Shown in pieces: positions 21,319 through 47,912 of a DNA stretch of 64,000 nucleotides (positions are counted from its first letter, which is position 1; each line of letters opens with the position of its first letter). The stretch spans positions 620,001 through 684,000 of the forward strand of contig NZ_LGKN01000004.1 of the NCBI RefSeq assembly GCF_001306175.1, written 5' to 3'. Both the position numbers and the translations under genes were made by a program. The stretch comes from Ardenticatena maritima (lineage in GTDB: Bacteria; Chloroflexota; Anaerolineae; Ardenticatenales; Ardenticatenaceae). The notes beneath the pieces are model-generated. The model was not told the origin of the DNA. It made no database searches and worked only from the letters and a program-made list of their open reading frames with translations.

Positions 21319-22007
21319 ACCTCTTCCACCAATTTGTACCCGATTCCCCAGACGGTTTCGACTTTGACGCCACTCTCTTCGAGTTTGTCACGAAGAGAAG
21401 CGACGTGAACATCCACCGTACGCGTCTCGCCAACGTAATCGTAGCCCCACACCCGGTTGAGTATCTGCTCACGGCTGAGCACTTGTCCGGGGTGGCGCAA
21501 AAACGTTTCCAGCAAATCGAACTCTTTCGGGCGTAAATAAACTTGCTCTTTTCCGATAAACACCTCACGGCGCTTCGGGAACAACCGCACGCGCCCTAAT
21601 GCTAACGGCACCTCGCGCGTTTGGTCTGATGAGCCCTCTGTTCCCCCAACACGCCGCAACACGGCTTTTACGCGCGCCACCAATTCACGCGGATTGAATG
21701 GCTTGGTGACATAATCATCAGCCCCTAACTCCAAGCCCAAAATCTTGTCAATATCATCACCACGCGCCGTCAGCAGAATAATGGGAACACGGTTGCCATC
21801 TTGCCGCAATTGTCGGCAGACGCTCAACCCATCCAACTCCGGCAACATGACATCCAACACAACCAAATCCGGCTCGATTTCAGCCACTTTCCGTAACGCT
21901 TCTACACCATCAGCAGCGTAGGCGACATCAAAGCCTTCTTGTTCCAGGTACAACCGCACCAGTTCAAAGATATGCTGCTCGTCGTCAACAACCAAAATGG
22001 TGCTCAT
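21315..22007 (-). CDS. OmpR/PhoB-family response regulator
   Basis: 230 residues. The receiver has VVDDE, phospho-acceptor Asp52 in VLDVMLP and the KPF lysine near residue 102. The winged-helix DNA-binding domain follows (LRPKEFDLLETFLRHPGQV, TRTVDVHVASLRDKLE, then the GIGYKL wing). The start overlaps the stop of the cNMP-patatin gene by 4 nt and its own stop overlaps the kinase start by 4 nt, so all three are translationally coupled. Targets are unknown. Confidence 0.95.
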   Translation of the reverse strand: MSTILVVDDEQHIFELVRLYLEQEGFDVAYAADGVEALRKVAEIEPDLVVLDVMLPELDGLSVCRQLRQDGNRVPIILLTARGDDIDKILGLELGADDYVTKPFNPRELVARVKAVLRRVGGTEGSSDQTREVPLALGRVRLFPKRREVFIGKEQVYLRPKEFDLLETFLRHPGQVLSREQILNRVWGYDYVGETRTVDVHVASLRDKLEESGVKVETVWGIGYKLVEEV

Positions 22008-23698
22008 CGCGCTTTTTCGATGACTTTCTGGCGAATATCCACGCGAGCGCCCGCACGACGTTCGCTCAACAAGCGCTTGATATCATCAACAAATTTTTCA
22101 GCCGCCACACGCCCACGCTCAACGATGGGCTTCCATTCTTTGTAGTTCATCCCATCAACGTCGGTAACGTCCGGCTGGATGAGCACATCTACATTGCTCA
22201 TGCGGCTTTCAACAATACCCGCCTCCATAATTTCCTGAACACCCAACACAATGTTCAACACATTGGGCAACCGACCGCTTTGCAAAATTTCTTTGCGGTG
22301 GGCGCGTTCGGTCAGGTTCACAATCACACTCGAGGCGATGATGATATTCACATCGTTTTCAAGCGTACTGGCAGGGACAGGGTTGACGGCACCACCGTCA
22401 ATCAAATAGCGTCCATCCACATATGCGGGCTGAAAAATGCCCATGATGCTGGTACTCGCACGCACTGCATCCGCCAGAGGACCTTCGGTGAAGATGACTT
22501 CTTCCCCTGTGACAAGGTCTGCCGCCACCACTTTGAGCGGGATTTCCAAGTCTTCGATATTGGCGTTCCCAAACCATTTTTCGGCAAGGTAGCGGCGCAT
22601 TTTTTCGCCTTTGAGAATGCCGGTACGGAACGGAAAAGCAAAGTCATACAAGCCGAAGCGGAAACTGGTGGCTTTGGGGAGATGCGAAACAAATTGATAG
22701 AGATACTCGATGGAAGGGCGGTAGGCGTACAAACCGCCAATCAGCGCCCCCATGCTCGTCCCCGCAATGTAGTCAATGGGGATGTTGTTTTCACGCAAGA
22801 CTTCCAACACCCCCACGTGCGCCAATCCGCGCGAATTACCGGCGCTGAGGGCAATCCCCACCAACTTGCGCGCGACACGTCGCGCCGCGCGATCGACATC
22901 CTTGCGGCTTGGTTGCACATGCCAATAATTCTGCCGCCCATACCGCCGCAACCAGGTGGTGCTGTGATGGTCCACTTCGATAATAACTTCCCCAAGTTCA
23001 GCGGCTTTCCTCGCCAACGGAGTTTGGCGAGTGCGAATCACCATGACAATGCGGTTGTACTCATCCACCTCTTGACCGAGGAACTCGGCTAACTCCTCAG
23101 GACGTGCATCCCATGGAAAATGGTGAACATCCACATCGGGCGGCATGTCGGGCAAAGATGGACGCAAGCCGCCAATATCCACCACCAACACACGGTCGCC
23201 CGTGACGGCTTTCAAGCGTTCAACAAAGAAAGGAATATGCTGCCCTGTGATGGTAATGAGGTTGGTTTCGTCAATCTCAATGGGCTGTTGAATGGTTTTG
23301 CTCAGGCGGCGGCTGAGTTCCTTGCTGATATTGATGGCGATTTGTGGGTATTCTTGCAAGAGGTCGTCAAGGTCGCGTTTGTGCAGTTCCCAAATCTCAG
23401 CATCAATCGCCACCCGCACCGTTGCTGAGCGCCGCTCGCCCAACAACAGCGCCATTTCGCCAAAGAACGAACCGGGTCCCAAATGGGCCAGAACGCCGCC
23501 AGTTGGCTCACCTTCCCTGTCGGCTAATACTTGCACCTGGCCGCTTTCAATCACAAACATGGATTCGCCCGGTGCTCCGGCAGGGAACACAATGTCGCCT
23601 TTTTTGTAGCGGCGGAGTTTCATCCGCTTTTGGATAGCGGATAAGGCTTCCTGATCAAGCCCCTGGAAAAATGGTACTCGGCGCAGATTCTGGTTCAT
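22004..23698 (-). CDS. cNMP-binding patatin-like phospholipase (NTE family)
   Basis: 564 residues. The N-terminal cyclic-nucleotide-binding domain (about 1-140) includes GSFFGEMALL and RSATVRV. A patatin-like hydrolase follows after a linker. Its oxyanion loop lies in SAGNSRGLAHVG, the nucleophile Ser315 in GTSMG, and the catalytic Asp434 in LIDGGAVNP. This matches bacterial NTE-like lysophospholipases. Fusion to a cNMP domain suggests activity gated by a cyclic nucleotide. It is followed by a coupled OmpR two-component pair. A paralogue lies immediately upstream. A class III adenylate cyclase at 5094-6197 is a possible source of ligand, by inference. Confidence 0.93.
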   Translation of the reverse strand: MNQNLRRVPFFQGLDQEALSAIQKRMKLRRYKKGDIVFPAGAPGESMFVIESGQVQVLADREGEPTGGVLAHLGPGSFFGEMALLLGERRSATVRVAIDAEIWELHKRDLDDLLQEYPQIAINISKELSRRLSKTIQQPIEIDETNLITITGQHIPFFVERLKAVTGDRVLVVDIGGLRPSLPDMPPDVDVHHFPWDARPEELAEFLGQEVDEYNRIVMVIRTRQTPLARKAAELGEVIIEVDHHSTTWLRRYGRQNYWHVQPSRKDVDRAARRVARKLVGIALSAGNSRGLAHVGVLEVLRENNIPIDYIAGTSMGALIGGLYAYRPSIEYLYQFVSHLPKATSFRFGLYDFAFPFRTGILKGEKMRRYLAEKWFGNANIEDLEIPLKVVAADLVTGEEVIFTEGPLADAVRASTSIMGIFQPAYVDGRYLIDGGAVNPVPASTLENDVNIIIASSVIVNLTERAHRKEILQSGRLPNVLNIVLGVQEIMEAGIVESRMSNVDVLIQPDVTDVDGMNYKEWKPIVERGRVAAEKFVDDIKRLLSERRAGARVDIRQKVIEKAR

Positions 23699-23765
23699 CG
23701 AGTTCCTCGTATTGGGAAACCGGTTGTTTGGCGCTCAAGTATAATACAAAAGTTTGATACTTTTG

Positions 23766-23792
23766 AAAAAAGCGCACGCGCCTTTCGCTTTT
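23766..23792 (-). terminator. Intrinsic terminator between the patatin paralogues
   Basis: AAAAGCG (23768-23774) pairs with CGCTTTT (23786-23792), with a T run on the minus strand. Just beyond it is a second inverted repeat, CAAAAGT-N5-ACTTTTG, at about 23748-23766, near where the downstream gene's promoter should lie. Confidence 0.6.
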
Positions 23793-23836
23793 CTACCTAT
23801 GCCAACACCCGTTTGTGATGGATAAAAGTCCCATTT

Positions 23837-25537
23837 TTACGAAAGAACCGATAACAGCGGCACAGCAACTTGTGGGTAGAGCAAGCGCTGAATGGACTCC
23901 ACCGAAGATTCAGCTGCCTGACGCCCCCGCGCAATCAATTCCTCCCACCGGTCGTATTCAAACCCGCCAATATCGCTCACGTGAGGACGCAAGAGCAGAT
24001 CGGCGCTGTGCTGTGTCTGGTGCTCTAGCATGACCGCCCCCATGATTTCCTGCACCCCCATGATAATGTTGACCAAGCCCGGCACACGCCCGGCACGCGC
24101 AATCGCGCGGCGGGTACGGCGTTCCGATAAGCTGGGGATTGTGCTGACAACAATCAGGATATCCACTTCATGCTCGATAACGGAGATGGGAATGGGGTTG
24201 ACTGCGGCGCCATCCACCAGATACCGCCCGTTGTAGAAGAAAGGTTGGAAGATGCCCGGAATACACGCGCTCGCCCAAACCGCTTCGGTCACCGGACCAG
24301 TATGGAAGACGACTTCTTGCCCGGTGACAAGGTCGGTGGCGACCACATAGAGCCGCCGTTGAAGGTCGCGGAAGGTTTTGTGGTGAAACCATTGTTCGGC
24401 AAGATAGCGCCGTGCTTTTGCGCCTTTGATGAACCCGTGCCGCGGCCACCACGCAATATCGTACAATCCAGAGCGCCAGCTGGTTGCCCAGGGAAGATGC
24501 GCAGCAAATGTCTGTAATCCCTCGGCGTCGTAGCCGGCGGCGTAAAGCGCCCCCACCAATGCGCCCATACTCGTCCCGGCAATCACATCCACCGGCACGC
24601 CGACTTCTTCCAGCACTTGAATAACGCCAATATGCGCCAATCCCCGCGCATTTCCCGAACTGAGCACCAGCCCCACGGTTTTGTGCGCCAGTTTTCGCGC
24701 CATGTAATCCACTGCACGCGGTTCAGCCAGTGCATGCCAGTAGACGCCCCCCGCCAAGGAAGAGACCCAATGTGTGACTGGCGTACCCAACTCAATCACG
24801 ACATCGGCTTGCCCAACGGCGGTACGGTTCAACAGGGTGTCGGACGGGGAGATGAACATGATGATACGATCGTAATCCGCGGCGTTGTCACTCAGAAAGA
24901 TGGGGAGCGCTAGCGGGTTTTCCTGTTGCCATGTGTACCATTCCACCCGGTTGGAAAGTCTCCACTGCTCCGGCTGCCAGTCGGCACGGGTCGCATCCAC
25001 CAACAACAGGCGTTCAGCGCTCACCTCTTCAAATCGCTGGATGAACGCCATAGCCGTCGGTTCATCCGCCAGCAGTGCCACCAGCCGCCACACACGATTG
25101 ATGGATTCACCGTGAATGGTTCGGCGAAGCCGCAAACTCAATTCGCGGCTCATGTTGATGGCAATCACGGGGTGTTCTTCAAGCAACGTTTCGAGGTCTT
25201 CTTTATGCAACTGCAAGAGAACGGCATCAATGACCACACGTACCGTTGCGGAGCGAGTCCCCCCTAACAACAACGCGACTTCGCCAAAAAACGAGCCAGG
25301 CCCCAAACGCGCGAGCACATTCTCCTTGCCGTCTTCTTGTTGCGCGACGACTTCGACTTGCCCGGATTCAATGAAGTACATGGCGTCGCCCGGTTCACCT
25401 TGCAAAAAGACGACATCGCCTTTCTGGTAGGACACGCGACGCAAACGCCGCGCCATTGCCGTGAGTGTTTGTTCCGGCAAGAGGCTAAAGAATGGGACGC
25501 GTCGCAAGTTCAACGCCATGTCGGGTTTGGTCACCAT
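23837..25537 (-). CDS. cNMP-binding patatin-like phospholipase, paralogue 2
   Basis: 566 residues; GGGAG lies 7 nt before the ATG. It has the same architecture as the next gene: cNMP-binding domain with GSFFGEVALL and RSATVRV, then a patatin domain with SSGNARGLAHIG, nucleophile Ser323 in GTSMG and Asp442 in LVDGAAVNP. The two proteins align over their whole length with identical blocks (LRRVPFF, IAINMSREL versus IAINISKEL). They are tandem duplicates that have diverged, mostly in the middle linker. Each has its own terminator region, so they may be controlled separately. Confidence 0.93.
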   Translation of the reverse strand: MVTKPDMALNLRRVPFFSLLPEQTLTAMARRLRRVSYQKGDVVFLQGEPGDAMYFIESGQVEVVAQQEDGKENVLARLGPGSFFGEVALLLGGTRSATVRVVIDAVLLQLHKEDLETLLEEHPVIAINMSRELSLRLRRTIHGESINRVWRLVALLADEPTAMAFIQRFEEVSAERLLLVDATRADWQPEQWRLSNRVEWYTWQQENPLALPIFLSDNAADYDRIIMFISPSDTLLNRTAVGQADVVIELGTPVTHWVSSLAGGVYWHALAEPRAVDYMARKLAHKTVGLVLSSGNARGLAHIGVIQVLEEVGVPVDVIAGTSMGALVGALYAAGYDAEGLQTFAAHLPWATSWRSGLYDIAWWPRHGFIKGAKARRYLAEQWFHHKTFRDLQRRLYVVATDLVTGQEVVFHTGPVTEAVWASACIPGIFQPFFYNGRYLVDGAAVNPIPISVIEHEVDILIVVSTIPSLSERRTRRAIARAGRVPGLVNIIMGVQEIMGAVMLEHQTQHSADLLLRPHVSDIGGFEYDRWEELIARGRQAAESSVESIQRLLYPQVAVPLLSVLS

Positions 25538-33360: not shown

Positions 33361-34632
33361 TCACGCCAGAATGGTCGTGCCCGAGGCAATTTCCTTTTGC
33401 TTGAAGTGGCGCGGCTGAGCATACGGATAGACCACGCAATTGCGCCCAATCACCACCTCGGGGGGAATCTGCGCGCCCTTCCCCACCAGCGTGATGCCTG
33501 TATTGAGCACGGTTGGTTGCTCATGGTTGGGGGTGTTATCCTCGCCAAACCCCACATGCGCCCCCGCACCAATCACAACGTTTTTATCCACAATCGCGCG
33601 GTCAACCACCGCCCCACTCTCAATGACCGTATCGGTGAAAATGATGGAATCACGCACCTCAGCGCCCGGCGCGACATACACCCCCGGCGACAACACCGAG
33701 CGCACCACACGCCCGAAAACCTGCGCCCCGTCGCTGAGCAGGCTTGTTTCCACCTGCGCTTCGGGGCTGAAAAAGACCGGTGGGCGTTCTTCGCTTTTGG
33801 TGTGAATCACCCATTCAGGGTCGTACAAATCGAGCGCGGGGGTTTCCGCTAGCAAAGCGGTATTGGCTTCCCAGTAGGCTTGCACCGTCCCCACGTCCGC
33901 CCAGTAGCCGAGGAAGGGGTAGGCGTAGAGCCGCTTGCCGGCTTCCAGCATGGTGGGAATCACTTCACGCCCAAAATCGCGTTGCGTTTTGCCGGGACCA
34001 CTCAGCCACTCAATCAGCAACTGGCGGTTGAACACGTAAATGCCCATGCTCGCCAGCGTACTGCGTGTGCGGCGCGGTTTTTCTTCAAAGTAGGTCACGC
34101 GCCCATCGGGGTCAGCCGTCACCATGCCGTAGCGCCGCACCTCATACGGGTTGACAGACCGCACCGCAATGGTGACATCGGCGCGTTGTTCAACGTGGTA
34201 GCGCAACATGGGGCGGTAGTCCATCTTGTAAATGTGGTCGCCCGCCAGAATGAGCACCACATCGGTGTTTTGCTCGCGCACCACATCCAGGTGGAAGCGC
34301 ACCGCGTCGGCTGTCCCTTCCTGCCAGGCGGTGTTTTCTCCCGGTCGCGCCTGATATGGCTGCAACAGCCGCAACCCGCCGGTGGTGGTTCGGTCCAGGT
34401 CCCAGGGGCGACCAATGCCGATATGCTCGTTGAGCGAACGCGGTTGGTACTGCGTCAACACAGCAACGTTGTAAATGTCGGAGTTGACGCAATTGCTCAG
34501 CGGAAAATCAATAATGCGATACTTGCCGCCAAACGGAAGCGCCGCCTCTGAGCGTAGTGCAGTCAGCACACTCAACGCGGGGCTAGCGCCACCTGCCAAA
34601 ATCATCGCCAACGTTGAAGGAAATGTCGCCAT
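33361..34632 (-). CDS. GlgC-like protein with degenerate nucleotide-binding loop
   Basis: 423 residues, full length with an N-terminal nucleotidyltransferase and a C-terminal left-handed beta-helix. It aligns end to end with the neighbouring GlgC ([41 protein letters not shown]). The essential N-terminal loop is altered: [20 protein letters not shown] replaces [20 protein letters not shown], losing the conserved Arg and the Lys that touch ATP and pyrophosphate. It is therefore probably a non-catalytic or regulatory subunit that pairs with GlgC, analogous to GlgD or plant large subunits. It is co-transcribed 15 nt after glgC. Confidence 0.87.
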
Positions 34633-34647
34633 GAGCAGACTCCTGCC

Positions 34648-35910
34648 TTATTCGATGGTTTCACCCGACGGCACTACACCGTCGAAAGGAGCGAAAGCGT
34701 CTTCGTCCACATCCGGATGAATGAGCACATTGCGCCCAATGCGCGTATTGGGGGGCACGTGCGCCGCCTTGCCGATGACACTGATACCGGTGTTGAGTTT
34801 ATCCGGCTCGGTGCGGTTCGGCGTGTCAACATCATCGCCAACCCCAACCAGCGCCCCCGCCCCAATGACGACATCTTTATCCACAATCACGCGGTCGAGC
34901 ACGGCACCCGGTCCAATCCAGGTATCGTTCATCACAACTGATTCGCGCACCACCGCACCCGGCGACACATACACCCCCGGTGAAAGCACAGAACGCTCCA
35001 CACGCCCGCGCACAATCGCCCCGTTGCAAATCATGCTTTGCACCACGTGCGCTTGAGGTCCCAGTTTGGCGGTGGGGCGCTCATAACTGCGTGTGTGAAT
35101 GACCCATGAGCGGTCATAGAGTTGCAACGGCGAATCGGGGCGCAACAAATCCATGCTGGCTTCCCAGTAGGATTGAATGGTGCCCACATCCACCCAATAC
35201 CCATCGAAGGGGAACGCGTACACTTTGTGCGTTTCAAGCAGCGCCGGAATCACATGTTTGCCAAAATCCAGGTCGGGGTGCTGTTCACCAAGCGCCGGCA
35301 GCACCGTCCGCAAGACATCCGCGCGGAAAACGTAAATGCCCATGTTCGCCAACGTGCCGTATTCCGGCGTGTCGGGCTTCTCGTGGAACTCAGTCACGCG
35401 CGATTGACGGTTGGTCGTCAAAATGCCGAAGCGGTGTGTTTCGTGCTCGGGCACATTCATCACGGCAATCGTCAAATCGGCTTCCTTCTCCTGGTGAAAC
35501 GCCAGCATGGGGCGGTAATCCATCTTGTAGATATGGTCGCCCGAGAGAATCAGCACCGTATCAGCGCGGACTTCGTCCAGATATTCAAGGTTCTGCAACA
35601 CGGCGTCCGCCGTCCCACGATACCACTCCTGATGCCCACGCCCCTGGTAAGGCTGCAAGACGCGCAACCCGCCACGCGAGCGGTCCAAATCCCAGGGGCG
35701 ACCAATCCCCAAATGGCGATTGAGCGAGTGCGGGCGGTATTGGGTCAACACGGCAACATCAAAAACGCCTGAATTGACGCAATTGGAAAGCGTGAAGTCA
35801 ATAATGCGGTATTTTCCAGCAAAGGGCACAGAAGGTTTGGCGCGTTTGTGCGAAAGAACCGTCAGGCGCGTCCCTGCACCACCGGCGAGGATAATGGCTG
35901 CCACTCGCAT
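34648..35910 (-). CDS. glgC: Glucose-1-phosphate adenylyltransferase
   Basis: 420 residues. It makes ADP-glucose from glucose-1-phosphate and ATP, the committed step to glycogen. The full catalytic loop [20 protein letters not shown] is present, then [43 protein letters not shown] (metal Asp) and FHEKP (sugar-phosphate Lys). A C-terminal left-handed beta-helix carries regulatory and oligomer contacts. The ATG follows AAAGGAGA. It heads the glgC, glgC-like, aceK unit. No glycogen synthase or branching enzyme is in the window. Confidence 0.95.
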
Positions 35911-40790: not shown

Positions 40791-42035
40791 ATGAGCCGAA
40801 ACAGTCGCGCACTCATCACAGCCTTTTTGAGCATCATTCTGGTTTCTATTTTGTGCCTCTGCATCATGGTTGCGGGTATCTTTTTCTGGGAACAGAGCGG
40901 TGGCTCGCAAGCCTTTATGGATTCTTTTACAGAAACACAAGAAGAAACACCTGCCATAACGGCGCCTGAACAAGAAGAAGCACAACCCCCAAGCGAAGAA
41001 CCCGCTGCGCCCACCGACCTGGCCGCATTGACGGATGAACAAATCGTCGCGGCGCAAAGTCGGGTCATTCGGCGCGTCTATGAACGGGTTGCGCCCAGCG
41101 TGGTGAACATCGTCGTCACAAGCGATTCGCTTTTGGGCGGCGGCGAAGGCAGCGGCTTCGTGATTGACAAAGAGGGGCACATCGTCACCAACAACCACGT
41201 TGTCGCCGACGCAAACGAGATTATCGTCAAATTCTCGGAAGAAACGGAAGTCAAAGCCTCGTTGGTCGGGACAGCGCCGGACGTTGACCTGGCGGTCATC
41301 AAAGTTGAGGTTGACCCCTCTATTCTGGTGCCCGTTGAAATGGGGAGCATGAACGACCTTGCTGTGGGGGATTTGGTCATTGCGATCGGCAACCCCTTCG
41401 GGTTTGAACGCACAGTGACAACCGGCATTGTGAGCGCCCTGGGGCGCACCATTCCCCGCGCCACGGGGCAATTCTCCTTGCCCAACCTCATCCAGACCGA
41501 CGCCGCCATCAACCCCGGCAACTCTGGTGGTCCCTTGCTGGACATTCATGGCCGCGTTGTCGGTGTGAATACCCTCATCTTCTCCCAAACCCCAGGCGCC
41601 AATTCGGGGGTCGGGTTTGCCATTCCCATTGATACGGTAAAGCGCGTCGTGCCGGACCTCATCGAGACGGGGCAATTCCAGTATCCGTACATTGGCATTC
41701 AGGCGCTGACGCTGACGCCCACGCTCGCCGAGGCGTTGGGCACCAGTGTGCAACATGGCGTTCTGGTACAAGAAGTGATTCCCGATTCACCCGCTGAAAA
41801 AGCCGGCTTGCGCGGTGGCGACGAAGAAGTCGAGATTCCAGGGTTCGGGCTTGTTCGTAAAGGTGGCGATATCATTATCGGGGTTGACGATGTGCAAGTG
41901 GAATCTTTCGACGACTTGATCAACTACCTGGACACGAAGCGCGTCGGCGACACCATCCGCTTGCGAATCGTGCGCAACGGCGAAGAGCAAGAACTGGACC
42001 TGACGCTTGGTCCGCGCCCGCAATCGTTGCCGTAA
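40791..42035 (+). CDS. htrA: HtrA/DegP-type serine protease with PDZ domain
   Basis: 414 residues. One N-terminal signal-anchor helix (about 9-31) and an acidic Pro/Glu linker lead to a trypsin-like domain. The triad is His in IVTNNHVVAD, Asp in DVDLAVIKVE and Ser in NPGNSGGPLLD. One PDZ domain follows (about 300-410, with SPAEKAGLRGGDEEV). It acts outside the cytoplasmic membrane as protease or chaperone for misfolded envelope proteins. It is the last gene of the grpE, dnaJ, htrA run and ends at a terminator. Confidence 0.94.
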   Translation: MSRNSRALITAFLSIILVSILCLCIMVAGIFFWEQSGGSQAFMDSFTETQEETPAITAPEQEEAQPPSEEPAAPTDLAALTDEQIVAAQSRVIRRVYERVAPSVVNIVVTSDSLLGGGEGSGFVIDKEGHIVTNNHVVADANEIIVKFSEETEVKASLVGTAPDVDLAVIKVEVDPSILVPVEMGSMNDLAVGDLVIAIGNPFGFERTVTTGIVSALGRTIPRATGQFSLPNLIQTDAAINPGNSGGPLLDIHGRVVGVNTLIFSQTPGANSGVGFAIPIDTVKRVVPDLIETGQFQYPYIGIQALTLTPTLAEALGTSVQHGVLVQEVIPDSPAEKAGLRGGDEEVEIPGFGLVRKGGDIIIGVDDVQVESFDDLINYLDTKRVGDTIRLRIVRNGEEQELDLTLGPRPQSLP

Positions 42036-42103: not shown

Positions 42104-43444
42104 CTATTTGAGCGACGCCAGCAAAGCGGCATACGCTTGCGTTGCACGCCGTTGCACATCGGCAACACCGGCGCGCACTTGCTGCATGGGGTCGCTCACG
42201 CGCCACGTTCCCGGTTCCGCCATCGCATGCAAGAACCCACTCAATCGGAACCAATACACCAGCATGCGGTATGCCGGCAGCAAAAAGAGTACCCACCAGG
42301 CTGCACGTGCCCGCCGCCAGGCAAAAGGTGGCGCGCTGGAGAGCGCCACCGCCACCCACAGCAGGTCAATACCGAGATAGAAGAAATACAACACGATAAA
42401 CGTCGTCACAATCAGCGAAAGCGAATACCCAAAAAACACCAGCACAGGCAACAAAAACGTCCAGACGGCGCGCGGAAATGAAAGCGTGTGGTCAATCAGG
42501 AGCACACGGCGCGGGTTGAACCCCCAAAACGCCCACCAGGGGCGCTTGAGCAAATGGCGGTGGCGGGCGCTCACCTCAACCTGTCCACGTTGCCAGCGCA
42601 CACGTTGCGCATAGAGCGCGCTCAGTGATTCAATGGAATGGACGTAAGCAATCGCCGTGGAAATCGCGCCGACACGCTTATCGCGAAAACGTTCGTAGAA
42701 TTCAAATGTCAGGTCGGTGTCCTCGGTGACGGTGAGTTGGGAGTACAGGAACGTTTCCAGCAGGGCTTCGCGCCGAAAGATGGAGAACGCCCCCGAAAGC
42801 GTGTAGAGATTGTTCAACAACGTCTGATGCTCACGCCCCACGTGGAACGCTGTGAGATACTCAAAAAACTCGCATTCGGCCAACACGCGCCGCGCCAACG
42901 AGGCATCCGGTGGCGGCGGCAACACTTGGATAGAACCGGTGGCGGCCACCATATCCGGCTCCACTTCAAAGACTTCCACGACTTTGCGCACAGCGTCGGG
43001 CGCGAGCACCACATCGCTATCTACGTTGAAAATGTATTGCCCACGCGCGAGATGAATACCTGCATTGAGCGCCCACGCTTTGCCTTTGTTGAGAATGGTG
43101 TGCCAGCGCATGTGCAAGGGCAATTCGGCTTGCAAACGGGCAAACACACCAAACGAGTTATCCGTCGTACCGTTGCTGATACAAAGAATTTCCATCCGGT
43201 CGAGTGGGTAGTCTTGCGCAGCAATGGAACGCAGGCAAGGCTCCAATGTCTCTTCACTGTTGTACACAGGGATGACAATCGAAATGAAAGGGTAATACGT
43301 CAGCGGGCGATACAAACGCCGCCGACGGTAGCGCATTGCCAACACGCCCACCACGTTGGCAATCGCGGTAGTCAAGTCAACCAGTATGGGGACGAGCAGC
43401 CACACCCCCCAAAAGATGATGAAACGCCATACCTGCTCACTCAT
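42104..43444 (-). CDS. Membrane GT2 glycosyltransferase, exosortase-cassette type
   Basis: 446 residues. One N-terminal helix, a GT-A family 2 domain and about three to four C-terminal helices, as in processive membrane glycosyltransferases. Motifs are ISIVIPVYNSEE, the nucleotide-binding NVDSDV (DxD), TEDTDLTFEF and the QRVRWQRGQ (QxxRW-type) motif. The start overlaps the stop of the exosortase-like gene by 4 nt. From memory, a GT2 family of this kind (TIGR03111) accompanies XrtG exosortases in Gram-positive bacteria. It probably adds or extends a lipid-linked sugar for the same surface system. Confidence 0.9.
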   Translation of the reverse strand: MSEQVWRFIIFWGVWLLVPILVDLTTAIANVVGVLAMRYRRRRLYRPLTYYPFISIVIPVYNSEETLEPCLRSIAAQDYPLDRMEILCISNGTTDNSFGVFARLQAELPLHMRWHTILNKGKAWALNAGIHLARGQYIFNVDSDVVLAPDAVRKVVEVFEVEPDMVAATGSIQVLPPPPDASLARRVLAECEFFEYLTAFHVGREHQTLLNNLYTLSGAFSIFRREALLETFLYSQLTVTEDTDLTFEFYERFRDKRVGAISTAIAYVHSIESLSALYAQRVRWQRGQVEVSARHRHLLKRPWWAFWGFNPRRVLLIDHTLSFPRAVWTFLLPVLVFFGYSLSLIVTTFIVLYFFYLGIDLLWVAVALSSAPPFAWRRARAAWWVLFLLPAYRMLVYWFRLSGFLHAMAEPGTWRVSDPMQQVRAGVADVQRRATQAYAALLASLK

Positions 43445-44067
43445 GACGTCCGCCTCATCTGCAAGGCTTCCTGCTGACGTTGATACACATCGTCAATGCT
43501 CACGCGCGTAATCAACCACCAGAAAATGGCGACAATGCAGGCGAAGAAAACCAGTTTGCCCAGATACGTATGCGCAAGCACCAGCCAGGATTTCCCCATG
43601 TAGTGCAAAATCACCACGATGAGCAGCACGCGCACAATGTTGGCCGCCCATGTCGCCACAAGCCCAAGCGTCAGATACCATGTGCGGCGCGGTAATGACC
43701 AACCGGGGTAGAAGACGAGCAGGCTCGCCAGCACCGACAATTCCAACAAGCCCGAAGATTCCACCCCAATGCGCAACATTGTCCACCCCACATCCTGCTC
43801 AATCACCAGTACCAGCAAAACCCCCGGCGCGCCGCGAAAAATGCGTGTCGGGATACCAATGCTCTCACACAAAACGTGCACCGTCCACGCGACCGAATGC
43901 GCCAAGGTCATTTCCAGCCCCAGGAATGGACCCGCCAAGAGAATCAACCCATAGGCAAGCCCCACCGTCGCGATGATGTAATACGGCAACCAAATGCGGT
44001 ACGCGCGCAAAAAGAGCACCAGCGCGCCCCACGCGCCCACCCCAAGCACAAACCAGACCAGGCTCAT
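43441..44067 (-). CDS. xrtG: XrtG-like exosortase/archaeosortase family protein with Ser for Cys
   Basis: 208 residues. The ATG at 44067 lies in an ATGA overlap with the upstream gene, 8 nt after GGAGG. A longer in-frame start is rejected. About seven transmembrane helices. The family's Arg and His are present: Arg146 in ANIVRVLLIV and His166 in LAHTYLGKLVFF. The expected catalytic Cys before SG is a serine: IGVESSGLLEL, with Ser104 (codon TCT at 43758-43756, one base from a Cys codon). Exosortases cut a C-terminal sorting tail and may attach a glycolipid. The gene is flanked by a GT2 gene and a candidate substrate. The protein could be a Ser-type variant or inactive. Confidence 0.85.
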   Translation of the reverse strand: MSLVWFVLGVGAWGALVLFLRAYRIWLPYYIIATVGLAYGLILLAGPFLGLEMTLAHSVAWTVHVLCESIGIPTRIFRGAPGVLLVLVIEQDVGWTMLRIGVESSGLLELSVLASLLVFYPGWSLPRRTWYLTLGLVATWAANIVRVLLIVVILHYMGKSWLVLAHTYLGKLVFFACIVAIFWWLITRVSIDDVYQRQQEALQMRRTS

Positions 44068-44732
44068 GACAGCCGCCTCCGTTGCCGAGCGAGCAACAAC
44101 GCCCCACTCAATGCCACAACACCAATCAAGGGCCACCCTAACGCATTTGCCGGGCTCCACTGCACTTCCTGTGTCGTATCTTCAATACGGTCGGGGTGTT
44201 GGTTGTGTGTTGTGGCGGCAAACATGAGCATGGTTTGTCCGGGAATAATACCCAAGACATCAAACGGCACACCCCACTCAACACGCAAGCCCCCTTCTTG
44301 ACGGCTTTCGCCCCAGTCGGCGTTGTGTGCAATCTGCGCGATAAAGCCTCCCGTGCCGTCGTACACTTCAACATCCACTTGCGAACCTTGGTTCTTGGGC
44401 TGGTAACGCACAAAAATACGGCGGTCGCCGGGTTCGCCGTAATTGCCGTTGTTGTTCGTATCAAGAAAGAGCGAAATTTCCAATTTTGTGTTATCACTTG
44501 CCCACCGCTCTAACATGAAGTAGAGCGTTTCCTCATTCGGGTTGGTATCGAAATAGAGCCGACGAATGTCGTTTTCTTTATCGGCATCGCCAGGTGGGTC
44601 TTCAACGTAAGGGTGTCCGTCCCATTCCCCCATGTTGCTATCCAACACAATGGGGCCATTCGCCAGCACCGGGCGTGCAAGCGTCATCATCAGCACGAGT
44701 ACAACCAGAACAACCTTTCCTATTCGCCACAT
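44064..44732 (-). CDS. Secreted surface protein with sorting-signal-like C-terminus
   Basis: 222 residues. Signal peptide (about 1-25, ending ARPVLANG). The extracytoplasmic domain (about 26-190) begins IVLDSNMGEWDGHPYV and has alternating strands like a CBM9 or DOMON-type beta-sandwich with Asp-rich turns (DTNNNGNYG), possibly metal-binding. The C-terminus is a short SPANALG segment, one hydrophobic helix and a basic RQRRR cluster, the general layout of exosortase or LPXTG-type sorting signals without either canonical motif. It overlaps xrtG by 4 nt and is 8 nt after the PTPS_related gene, so it is a plausible substrate. Confidence 0.83.
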   Translation of the reverse strand: MWRIGKVVLVVLVLMMTLARPVLANGPIVLDSNMGEWDGHPYVEDPPGDADKENDIRRLYFDTNPNEETLYFMLERWASDNTKLEISLFLDTNNNGNYGEPGDRRIFVRYQPKNQGSQVDVEVYDGTGGFIAQIAHNADWGESRQEGGLRVEWGVPFDVLGIIPGQTMLMFAATTHNQHPDRIEDTTQEVQWSPANALGWPLIGVVALSGALLLARQRRRLS

Positions 44733-44740
44733 ACATTACC

Positions 44741-47311
44741 TCACGAAGAAACCTGCACACCTTCCGGCATGGGATACCACGTTGGCCAAAGTGGGCGCTC
44801 CGCCGGTGTACGCCGCACATACCAGAGCAACACGAATAAGAAGACCACCCCCGCCAGACTGACAAGCCGCCCGACCGTGTAAATCGGCGGCGGCTGGAAC
44901 CGCAGCGCCACCTGGTGCGTCCCAGCCGGGGCATCCATCACCAGCAAGCGTTCATAGGATTGATACGCAGAGGGAGCATCATCCAGGGTGAGCGCCCAGC
45001 GGTCATGGGCGGCAATGGGCACAAAGAGCGTTTGCGGCGTTTCCAAAGTGTAGGTGAAGCGATACCCAAACGTGCCAGCCTTGTATGCCTGCAACGGCAC
45101 GGGGTGCACCACCGGGAGCGCGTGCGCCGTCAAACCAGTCGCTTCTTCCAGCAGATGAATAGCGTCCACATCGCCGCGCGCCAGGGTGTAGAAAAAGAGG
45201 TTGTACCCCACAAACCAGACACGCCCGCCGTCAACATCTTTGTAGCCGACCAGCGTGGCTTTTTCTCCAATGTAGGACGTTGTCGCCACATCACCACTCA
45301 GCCCCTGGGGCGTGTGCGTGTACCACAAAATGGATTTTTCGCCGTCATGCGTTCCAAAAGGCGAGAGCGTCATCGTCTCGCCAGTCGCCAGATTGACAGG
45401 CACGGGACGTTCGTCCAGCACCACCGGTTCCCCCCACACATCCAAAAAATGCGGAATGCTCGCCATCGGGTCCGGGGGTGTACCCGTCAAGTCAATCACC
45501 ACACGCACACCCGCCCGCGCCACATCACGCACCAGCGCTTCGGCACGCTGCTTGTCATGCCACTGAAACCCCGACAACACCAGTAGCGGATACCGCGTCA
45601 ACTCATCCAGCGTGTAGTCATCGAGATAAGGCGATGTGCCCATCACAATTGAAGGGAAAATGTAAGCCGCATTTTGCGCGCCGCGCCCAATCCCCAACCC
45701 CTGCCACTCCACAACGAACGCACGGGGTTCCCCATCACGGTGATAGAGGGCAATCTCTTCACCATCGTACAAACGCTGAAACCCATGCCCCTGAAGCCCG
45801 CGCATCACATCGTTCACTGTCGGCAGGCGCTTCAAGACCACGACATCATCCACACCATACACATCCAGGCGAGACAAAACGTAGGGGATAAACCCGGTTT
45901 GCAACGCCTCATTGAGCGCGGCAACCGTGCGAGCCGTTGTTGCGCCCTGATACGCCCAGCCAAACACCTGCTCCCGCCCTTGCACAGCAAACCAATAGGA
46001 CGTTTTCGAGCCAAGCGCACTATGATCCAGCGTGGCGACGCGCCAGCCGGGCGTTTGCGCCAGGTTGGATACAACGGCTTCGAGATCGGGAGAAAGTGGA
46101 CGCATGAAAACCAAACGCCGCCCCAGCATGAACTCGGCGCACACCAGCAACAAAAGCACCACTGGTACGACGCGCCAGCGCCCACGCCAGGGCACATCGC
46201 GCAGATACCAAAGTACGCCGAAGAGCACAAATGTGCTGGCAATCCCCAAAAAACGCGCCGGCCAGAGCAGGCTGTGCATGGGTAAAGCGTTGTAAAACGT
46301 GTTCACGCGTGGCGTTGAAAGCAGAATGCCCACAAAACCGACGCTCACCAACGCCAACGCCGCCGGAGACTGCCGACGTCGCCAGAGCAGCAGCATGAGC
46401 GCACCCATCAACAGGAACGCGCCCACTGTCATCGTTTCAATGTCCGACAAACGCACCCTTGGATCGAAGTAGTGCGCAATCGGCACAACCGCCAAGGCTT
46501 CGGTCATGGCGGTGGTGTCAATATCGGTAATGCCACCCGTCAAACTGGGGAACAACCACCAGCCGCTCAGCATGATACCAATCACCAATGCGGCAATCAC
46601 GCGCAAAGCGCGGCGCATTCCGCCGGAGAACGCCATCACCCATGCCAGGCTGAGCAACGCCAGCATTGCCGCATAAATCGCCGCCATCATGGCATGGCTC
46701 AGCACGGTGAGCGCCATGCCAACGGCGATGATGAACAGATGTCGAGCGCGCCCATCCGGTTCCAGCGCACGCAACACGGCAAAGAGCAGCCAGGGCAACA
46801 AAGCAATTGCCACCACCCGCGGGACGTTTCCATCAGCAAACGCGACACGCACATTGTCGGGCAATATCAAGTACAATGCGCCCCCCACAAGCGCCCACCC
46901 CATGCCCAGCCAGCGCCGATAGAGCAACCAGCCACACGCGCCCACAAGCAGCGCACCAACCATGAGCCAGTTGGTTGCGACAAGCATATTGGGCGCAACC
47001 TGCGCCAGAGCAGCGATGAGGTAATACGCCGCCGGGGGATAGTAGCGCAGCATTTGCAACCCCATGTACCAGCCCGGAAACAAGTCGGGGTACCAGACAC
47101 CCTGCGCCACACTTTCGGCGAGATAGGTGGCTTTGAGAACATGCCCCAACGTGTCCGGCGCCCAGGGATACGTCCCGGCAGGTGCGAACAGCACTGGTGC
47201 ATAAAACCAAAGCGCCCCAGCCAGAAGCCCCAAGGCGCCCCCCAGCCACCAGCCTATGGGTTTGAAGGCTTCAACTTGCCTGTTGCGCACGGTGTTCATC
47301 ATCGTCTCCAT
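44741..47311 (-). CDS. Large polytopic PTPS_related membrane protein (GT-C-like)
   Basis: 856 residues; starts at 47302 or 47299 are also possible because GGAG lies just before those ATGs. About ten N-terminal transmembrane helices with loop WAPDTLGHVLKATYLAES and an Asp-containing extracytoplasmic segment resemble GT-C glycosyltransferases and match the PTPS_related family (PF10131). A large extracytoplasmic domain (about 430-800) and one C-terminal helix follow. It probably uses a lipid-linked sugar outside the membrane. The 5' end overlaps the PTPS-like gene by 41 nt, indicating coupled expression. Substrate unknown. Confidence 0.85.
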   Translation of the reverse strand: METMMNTVRNRQVEAFKPIGWWLGGALGLLAGALWFYAPVLFAPAGTYPWAPDTLGHVLKATYLAESVAQGVWYPDLFPGWYMGLQMLRYYPPAAYYLIAALAQVAPNMLVATNWLMVGALLVGACGWLLYRRWLGMGWALVGGALYLILPDNVRVAFADGNVPRVVAIALLPWLLFAVLRALEPDGRARHLFIIAVGMALTVLSHAMMAAIYAAMLALLSLAWVMAFSGGMRRALRVIAALVIGIMLSGWWLFPSLTGGITDIDTTAMTEALAVVPIAHYFDPRVRLSDIETMTVGAFLLMGALMLLLWRRRQSPAALALVSVGFVGILLSTPRVNTFYNALPMHSLLWPARFLGIASTFVLFGVLWYLRDVPWRGRWRVVPVVLLLLVCAEFMLGRRLVFMRPLSPDLEAVVSNLAQTPGWRVATLDHSALGSKTSYWFAVQGREQVFGWAYQGATTARTVAALNEALQTGFIPYVLSRLDVYGVDDVVVLKRLPTVNDVMRGLQGHGFQRLYDGEEIALYHRDGEPRAFVVEWQGLGIGRGAQNAAYIFPSIVMGTSPYLDDYTLDELTRYPLLVLSGFQWHDKQRAEALVRDVARAGVRVVIDLTGTPPDPMASIPHFLDVWGEPVVLDERPVPVNLATGETMTLSPFGTHDGEKSILWYTHTPQGLSGDVATTSYIGEKATLVGYKDVDGGRVWFVGYNLFFYTLARGDVDAIHLLEEATGLTAHALPVVHPVPLQAYKAGTFGYRFTYTLETPQTLFVPIAAHDRWALTLDDAPSAYQSYERLLVMDAPAGTHQVALRFQPPPIYTVGRLVSLAGVVFLFVLLWYVRRTPAERPLWPTWYPMPEGVQVSS

Positions 47312-47912
47312 GCTGCAACGCTTTCAAACTCGCCGCCTGCTGGGCACGCATCAGCGCATAGAACCGTTTGCGCGTATCCGGTCGTCGCAATGCGCGCGAG
47401 GCTTCTTCTTGTTGAAAGCGCTCCTGCTCCACCGGTTCGAGCCGAAACGCGACAGACTCCGTCGGGGATTCCCACACCGTCACCCCGACCAACTCAACCG
47501 GCAAATCGGCGAGCAAGCGTTCCAACTGCTGAAAAAGTACAGCCGCCAGGTTTTCCGTTGTGGGTTGTAATCGCTGAAAAGGCGGCAAATCGTTCAACAA
47601 CTGGTTGTTATACGCCGAGACCACCTGGTTCATCCGCTCACGAATAGCCGTATACCCCACAACAACGTGCGAGTCTTGTTCTAATTGCCGACTGCGACAG
47701 CGCACTTGCAACCGATACGAATGCGTATGTACCTCGCCCGGTACGCCATTCATCACGACAAAGTGGCGCGCATTGAAGAACATATCGAGCGTGATTTCAT
47801 AAACAAAGCCTTCGGGGGCCTTCAAAATACGCTCGATGTCAACGTCCCAAAACCCTTCAGGCAATGATGTTTCTTCAATTTTCTTTTCGTTATTCCTGGA
47901 AAAAAACGCCAT
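47271..47912 (-). CDS. 6-pyruvoyl-tetrahydropterin synthase-like protein lacking catalytic Cys
   Basis: 213 residues from the ATG at 47912. The 18 upstream in-frame codons lie in the leader and lack a good site. It has the PTPS/QueD fold with all three zinc histidines: His50 in FFNARHFV and His62/His64 in VHTHSYRL. The usual catalytic Cys four residues before the first His of that pair is Pro58. The WESPTESVAF end keeps the substrate-binding Glu. A related PTPS-like family (TIGR03112, from memory) occurs in XrtG cassettes. It begins the minus-strand cassette that ends at the GT2 gene. Its chemistry is open. Confidence 0.87.
   Translation of the reverse strand: MAFFSRNNEKKIEETSLPEGFWDVDIERILKAPEGFVYEITLDMFFNARHFVVMNGVPGEVHTHSYRLQVRCRSRQLEQDSHVVVGYTAIRERMNQVVSAYNNQLLNDLPPFQRLQPTTENLAAVLFQQLERLLADLPVELVGVTVWESPTESVAFRLEPVEQERFQQEEASRALRRPDTRKRFYALMRAQQAASLKALQHGDDDEHRAQQAS

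Follow-up and report, generated by a model that had tools for sequence, protein, structure and literature searches.

Exosortases were named for their sortase-like Cys-Arg-His triad, and the only mutational tests that we found were made in an archaeal relative; replacement of the Cys by Ser in Haloferax ArtA, attributed to Abdul Halim in 2018, reportedly abolishes processing. Canonical exosortases share six invariant residues, arranged as Cys-x-Gly, Asn-x-x-Arg and His-x-x-x-Gly (PMC1569441), and a review describes Cys173 of ArtA as critical (PMC9263693). A membrane serine enzyme that acts on substrates with a tripartite C-terminal tail is known in rhombosortase and its GlyGly-CTERM proteins (PMC3237569), which differ from exosortases in their unrelated rhomboid fold and in their motif.

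The closest described relatives of the locus analyzed here are the XrtG cassettes of Bacillota, represented in our comparison by three of the four plasmid records found to contain XrtG. [Eubacterium] eligens NC_012780 encodes a Firmicu-CTERM protein, XrtG, a TIGR03111 glycosyltransferase, an extra protein, a PTPS protein and a PTPS-related protein; Lactococcus lactis pBV60 encodes Firmicu-CTERM, XrtG, TIGR03111, PTPS and TIGR03766; and Aneurinibacillus encodes PTPS, a secreted protein, XrtG and TIGR03111, such that two of these three annotated cassettes include a Firmicu-CTERM protein. We found no experiment on XrtG in the literature searched, and in Lactiplantibacillus plantarum the reported expression of a ‘complete XrtG system’, Firmicu-CTERM protein included, was a matter of transcript correlation only (PMC12854382). 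In L. lactis, diguanylate cyclase and EAL-domain genes lie directly upstream of the cassette (L052:3956-5641), suggesting c-di-GMP control of the glycan system; and the extra E. eligens gene, located between the GT2 and PTPS genes (L051:9373-10455), specifies a 360-aa membrane protein that matches no family above cut-off and whose C-terminal half resembles, by eye, a degenerate GGDEF-type domain.

The five-gene cassette and its distribution

The window, i.e., the whole 64,000-nucleotide stretch of Ardenticatena maritima DNA that was analyzed, comes from a genome of 3.56 Mb in 12 contigs that is 98.6% complete. Between positions 42104 and 47912, its minus strand carries five open reading frames in series (PTPS-like, PF10131 membrane protein, secreted protein, exosortase-like, GT2), all of which were recovered where the original prediction had placed them:

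47271..47912, minus strand: PTPS-fold protein, 213 aa from ATG 47912 (PF01242 and TIGR03112 profiles)
44741..47311, minus strand: PF10131 membrane protein, 856 aa (PF10131 profile; AF2 model)
44064..44732, minus strand: candidate substrate, secreted, 222 aa (AF2 model; tail profile)
44166..44660, minus strand: predicted CBM9-like beta-sandwich of the candidate substrate, residues 25-189 (structure comparison of predicted model)
44136..44165, minus strand: tail signature V-Q-W-S-P-A-N-A-L-G (conservation)
44067..44135, minus strand: C-terminal TM helix and basic end RQRRRLS (sequence; model helix 199-221)
43441..44067, minus strand: XrtG-like exosortase-superfamily protein, 208 aa, Ser type (TIGR03110 and TIGR04178 profiles)
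43756..43758, minus strand: Ser104 (TCT) in E-S-S-G, at the canonical Cys position of C-x-G (alignment)
43630..43641, minus strand: Asn143-x-x-Arg146, retained (present in all 20 aligned proteins)
43570..43572, minus strand: His166 of H-x-x-x-G (G170), retained (alignment)
43555-43557, minus strand: Lys171, five residues past the active-site His; Arg in Cys types (alignment)
42104..43444, minus strand: XrtG-associated GT2, 446 aa, with DxD, TED and QxxRW motifs (TIGR03111 profile)

The five genes probably constitute a single transcription unit. Overlaps of 4 nt (ATGA) occur at both the GT2/exosortase and the exosortase/secreted-protein junctions, an 8-nt gap separates the secreted-protein and membrane-protein genes, and the membrane-protein and PTPS genes overlap by 41 nt; a scan for promoters returned sites no more often than chance. 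The PTPS frame remains open as far as GTG 47966 (a 231-aa ORF), but ATG 47912 is preferred as the start, its Met being retained in the genus-level relative. The cassette is bordered upstream by a divergent TRAM/RNA methyltransferase gene (48250) and downstream by a convergent gene for an HtrA-type protease (40791-42035). The window also contains a tandem pair of GlmU-like genes of the nucleotidyltransferase/left-handed beta-helix type, about 7 kb away from the cassette (33361-35910), which may supply nucleotide sugars; a tandem pair in which a cyclic-nucleotide-binding domain is fused to a patatin-like phospholipase (22004-25537); and a tandem pair of histidine kinases, both with the 7TM input domain PF16927 (1345-5229).

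At least eight other Chloroflexota genomes have the same gene order. The full order of PTPS, PF10131, substrate, exosortase and GT2 genes is present in G001, G002 and G004 (same family), in G034 (another family of the same class), and in G203 and G295, and the five-gene order recurs at L042, L044 and L046, the last with PF10131 and substrate reading frames that are broken or fused; where contigs of relatives end prematurely, they carry whatever part of the cassette fits. Among these genomes, G001 is a genus-level relative whose GT2 is 87% identical to that of the window. Despite this adjacency in relatives, the cassette is sporadic: 14 of the 400 genomes sampled from the phylum match TIGR03110, about half of them weakly, as do 9 of 396 genomes in the class-level sample (E 1e-8). 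One weak match, L007/L014, was set aside for poor alignment and lack of a cassette. Upstream of one cassette copy, a second and diverged PF10131-like protein (25% identity; L033:369-2798) forms a tandem of GT-C genes.

Profile searches, together with linkage to a TIGR03111 GT2 and a PTPS-related protein, bear out the identification of an XrtG-type cassette. Neither outcome named beforehand as overturning the original prediction was observed: the superfamily match of the exosortase is significant, the five genes remain linked in relatives, and the resemblance is not a product of chance. The original prediction of a complete cassette with its own candidate substrate was likewise correct; however, since Bacillota cassettes already hold a GT2, XrtG, PTPS and a Firmicu-CTERM protein, with Firmicu-CTERM beside xrtG in two annotated cases, this combination is of a known kind. 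The Bacillota systems share with the present one a secreted protein adjoining XrtG and the TIGR03111 GT2, as well as the PTPS-fold protein. The membrane gene is PF10131 both here and in E. eligens but TIGR03766 in L. lactis, which also has upstream c-di-GMP genes; the positions of the PTPS and membrane genes also differ from those here, as do the tail motif and the active site, which has Cys in these Bacillota cassettes and Ser in the window. Within the Chloroflexota, Cys-type cassettes (L009, L029, L046, L047) contain the same genes, although the contigs of L029 and L047 are too short to include the PTPS gene, and their substrates end in the same W-S-P-x-x-x-L-G tail; they differ in having an E-C-S-G site and G-R after the His, as opposed to E-S-S-G and G-K.

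Glycosyltransferases and the candidate substrate

The GT2 matches TIGR03111 with 374.1 bits (cut-off 363.95), the next-best profile being PgaC/IcaA at 129 bits, and its DxD, TED and QxxRW motifs are invariant among the relatives compared. The membrane protein matches PF10131 with 382 bits (gathering score 26.4), and its sequence retrieved nothing significant from the PDB. Its AF2 model (pLDDT 77.6, with low confidence in parts such as residues 260-300) comprises a GT-C core (about 10-525), a GATase/ThuA-like domain (about 534-735) and a C-terminal TM helix. Foldseek matched this model to AftD (E 3e-10), and with the core alone the VIA Z scores were 21.5 for yeast OST (8agb), 20.7 for AftD and 17.0 for ArnT. 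The protein therefore models as a GT-C glycosyltransferase and not as a pterin enzyme, and such a fold would fit the use of a lipid-linked sugar donor. Near residue 41, most relatives keep an [SP]-D-T-x-x-H motif, which in E. eligens reads S-D-T-M-Y-H; it may correspond to the first-loop acid of GT-C enzymes. A relationship to TIGR03766 was considered and rejected, the profiles being dissimilar. The original prediction had the PTPS-like and membrane proteins making or presenting a lipid-linked group; on the modeled fold, the role of the membrane protein is refined to that of a GT-C glycosyltransferase, and pterin-synthase chemistry finds no support.

That OST and Pmt are among the structural neighbors of the model, and that a weak match to PgfM2 was obtained (E 4e-7), raises the possibility that the substrate is itself glycosylated. 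The GT2 would then generate a polyprenyl-linked sugar and the GT-C enzyme would act as a protein glycosyltransferase, in the manner of PgfM2, Pmt or OST, before the exosortase released or lipid-anchored the glycoprotein. However, AftD, AftA and ArnT, which act on glycans or lipids, match about equally well, the QxxRW motif of the GT2 is that of processive enzymes, and Lactococcus has the unrelated XrtG-associated glycosyltransferase TIGR03766 instead of PF10131. We consider substrate glycosylation a tentative possibility.

The secreted protein belonged to no family in profile searches, and its sequence matched nothing significant in the PDB. Its AF2 model (pLDDT 82, from nine sequences) consists of an N-terminal signal helix, a beta-sandwich and a C-terminal helix. 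The predicted sandwich has a CBM9-like fold by structure comparison, with VIA Z scores of 11.8 to CBM9 7nwn, 11.6 to CBM9 1i82 (bound to cellobiose) and 11.4 to the third chain of ethylbenzene dehydrogenase (2ivf_C), most later rows falling to 7-8; no CBM9 Pfam match was present among the 11 members examined. The modeled fold suggests a carbohydrate-binding role, but CBM9-like folds also occur in chains that do not bind sugars, 2ivf_C among them. At its beginning, the mature domain reads I-V-L-D-x-x-x-x-[DE]-W, similar to the beginning of Firmicu-CTERM proteins; the Firmicu-CTERM profile TIGR04145 does not match the substrate, and only a short stretch, I-x-[LI]-D-G-x-F-x-D-W, is common to both.

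Serine in place of the catalytic cysteine

The best profile for the exosortase-like protein is TIGR03110 (XrtG; 76.1 bits, E 3e-21, below the cut-off of 102.75), and the superfamily profile TIGR04178 is matched well above its cut-off (53.5 bits against 23), which upholds the assignment to the exosortase superfamily. Cys-type relatives from the same class score 104.8 and 103.6 bits with TIGR03110, above the XrtG cut-off. Because the protein lacks the Cys and scores under this cut-off, we classify it as a Ser-type, XrtG-like variant: by its sequence, it is an XrtG homologue in an XrtG-type cassette, and not a canonical exosortase. Five of the six invariant residues are kept (E-S-S-G, N-I-V-R, H-T-Y-L-G). 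The prediction that the exosortase cleaves and attaches its substrate overlooked the Ser, and since the Cys is absent, this canonical role cannot simply be transferred, even though the superfamily match stands. No significant PDB match to the sequence was obtained and no exosortase structure was found with which to compare the geometry of the site. No paper that we found names a Ser exosortase, although one may exist.

Across the 21 proteins compared, the site residue is Ser in 12, all from Chloroflexota, and Cys in six Chloroflexota and the three Bacillota proteins. In six of the 12 Ser types, the 100 residues to either side of the site contain no Cys, so that no substitute Cys is possible in these. 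G-R follows the His in every Cys type, and 11 of the 12 Ser types, forming the main group, have Lys instead of Arg; the remaining one, L034, keeps Arg, and the two replacements in the main group may have been one event. Neither on the exosortase tree nor on the tree of the GT2s, which lack the trait, do the Ser proteins group as one clade, and a single clade is rejected for both (AU p 1e-4 and 8e-99, respectively, in a test designed after the residue was seen and on trees with long branches). The Ser-type L034 and the Cys-type L030, from the same family, are sisters at 100% support in both trees. Such well-supported branches force at least two switches between Cys and Ser, as judged from these sequences. 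In the independent Ser-type cassette of L034 (L034:9432-11516), the candidate substrate is another protein, whose end reads CSGATAMGWPLLG etc. and which lacks the S-P motif.

In the substrates of Ser types, V-Q-W-S-P-A-N-A-L-G is the most conserved of all 10-residue windows (mean pairwise identity 91%, compared with 48% in the mature domain and 34% in the TM helix), and its S, P, L and G are invariant across 13 tails. A profile built from these 13 tails, used in searching for further substrates, gave a single strong match, adjacent to the exosortase gene, in each of the eight genomes tested; the match in the window genome has an E of 6e-21 and there is no second. This agrees with the expectation of one dedicated candidate substrate adjoining the exosortase gene and with the conservation of the block. 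In the same genome, the exosortase is the sole match to TIGR04178, so the tail is served by no other detected exosortase. Because W-S-P-A-x-A-L-G is both the most conserved segment and present once per genome, it is likely that the Ser enzyme retains its client. ArtA and PGF-CTERM are similar in superfamily, tripartite tail and critical Arg, and the window tail matches PGF-CTERM weakly (14 bits); ArtA differs in its Cys173, its many substrates per genome and its studied lipid anchoring.

Replacement of Cys by Ser usually kills cysteine proteases. The Ser-type protein could accordingly be a dead exosortase that now serves as a tail-binding receptor or chaperone, keeping the CBM9-like protein at the glycan synthase, as might be expected from the invariance of the Cys in canonical exosortases (PMC1569441), its importance in ArtA (PMC9263693) and the accompanying change from Arg to Lys in the main Ser group. 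However, mere binding would need neither His nor Arg, and yet the Arg, His and Asn of the site are invariant; moreover, the replacement arose at least twice and in all 12 cases is Ser, never Ala or Gly. The exosortase also has a dN/dS of 0.09-0.16 between the window and G001, a rough value since dS is near saturation. This value, motif conservation and the pairing of a single tail with a single exosortase lead us to favor an active, dedicated pair, and, although a tail-binding pseudoenzyme would fit these features as well, we regard it as unlikely.

The PTPS-like protein matches PF01242 above its cut-off (81.6 bits, E 6e-23) and TIGR03112 slightly below it (64.5 bits, cut-off 69.35). Aligned with 2oba, 1b66 and relatives, it has all three zinc His (H68, H80 and H82, in the numbering of the 231-aa ORF), which, with a late Glu, are retained in nearly all PTPS-like members; the position of the catalytic Cys is occupied by Pro, and the Asp-His pair by Asn-Asn. 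The absence of the catalytic Cys, Asp and His led us to reject pterin chemistry, and the same loss in Bacillota members indicates that the whole family is probably not a pterin synthase. That an ordinary XrtG cassette is at hand, in which the PTPS-like protein supplies a pterin-type or otherwise modified lipid-linked group for attachment, is very improbable: the PTPS fold is indeed linked to the cassette in both Bacillota and Chloroflexota, but its catalytic residues are replaced family-wide and the exosortase has itself lost its Cys.

A proposed surface-anchoring system

We propose, with a probability of roughly 0.55, that the locus serves both glycan synthesis and protein anchoring as an XrtG-like cassette, with a single dedicated substrate, an acyl-enzyme on Ser104 and a PTPS-fold accessory. 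In this model, the GT2, with the QxxRW of processive synthases and a resemblance to PgaC/IcaA, would produce a surface glycan or a lipid-linked part of it, and the PF10131 enzyme would add or transfer sugar at the outer face from a polyprenyl-linked donor. The CBM9-like protein would be exported and then retained by its C-terminal helix. Past export, every step is one that we infer: the exosortase homologue would recognize W-S-P-A-x-A-L-G and cut at the outer face, through an acyl-enzyme on Ser104 in place of Cys, with Arg146 and His166 assisting; the new C terminus would be joined to a lipid or glycan acceptor; and the carbohydrate-binding protein would thereby be tied into the glycan coat, where it could hold the glycan. 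The PTPS-fold protein may be a cytoplasmic accessory that binds zinc or a ligand. By analogy, the nearest experimental case is PepA of Aquincola, a PEP-CTERM protein that keeps polysaccharide cell-bound, in a system where exosortase/PEP-CTERM ties protein to exopolysaccharide in flocs (PMC9850573).

The Ser site, the tail motif, the GT-C and CBM9-like folds and the loss of PTPS residues all go beyond the original prediction. We think it somewhat more probable than not that the Ser enzyme works like an exosortase. On balance, and by a modest preponderance, we believe these to be natural serine exosortases: Chloroflexota XrtG-like proteins in which Cys changed to Ser at least twice while Arg and His were kept (with the nearby Arg becoming Lys in the main group), and which would process one CBM9-like W-S-P-A-x-A-L-G substrate via an oxyester intermediate.

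Natural enzymes that keep everything but the Cys offer a direct test of the accepted exosortase mechanism, and the cassette, with one enzyme and one substrate, is a minimal system. If Ser types do not cleave, there must be a use for tail binding alone. If they do, exosortases can vary in their nucleophile, and members of the family escape annotation rules in which a Cys is required. The GT-C and CBM9-like assignments would turn a vaguely ‘PTPS-related’ cassette into a concrete hypothesis about a surface glycan.
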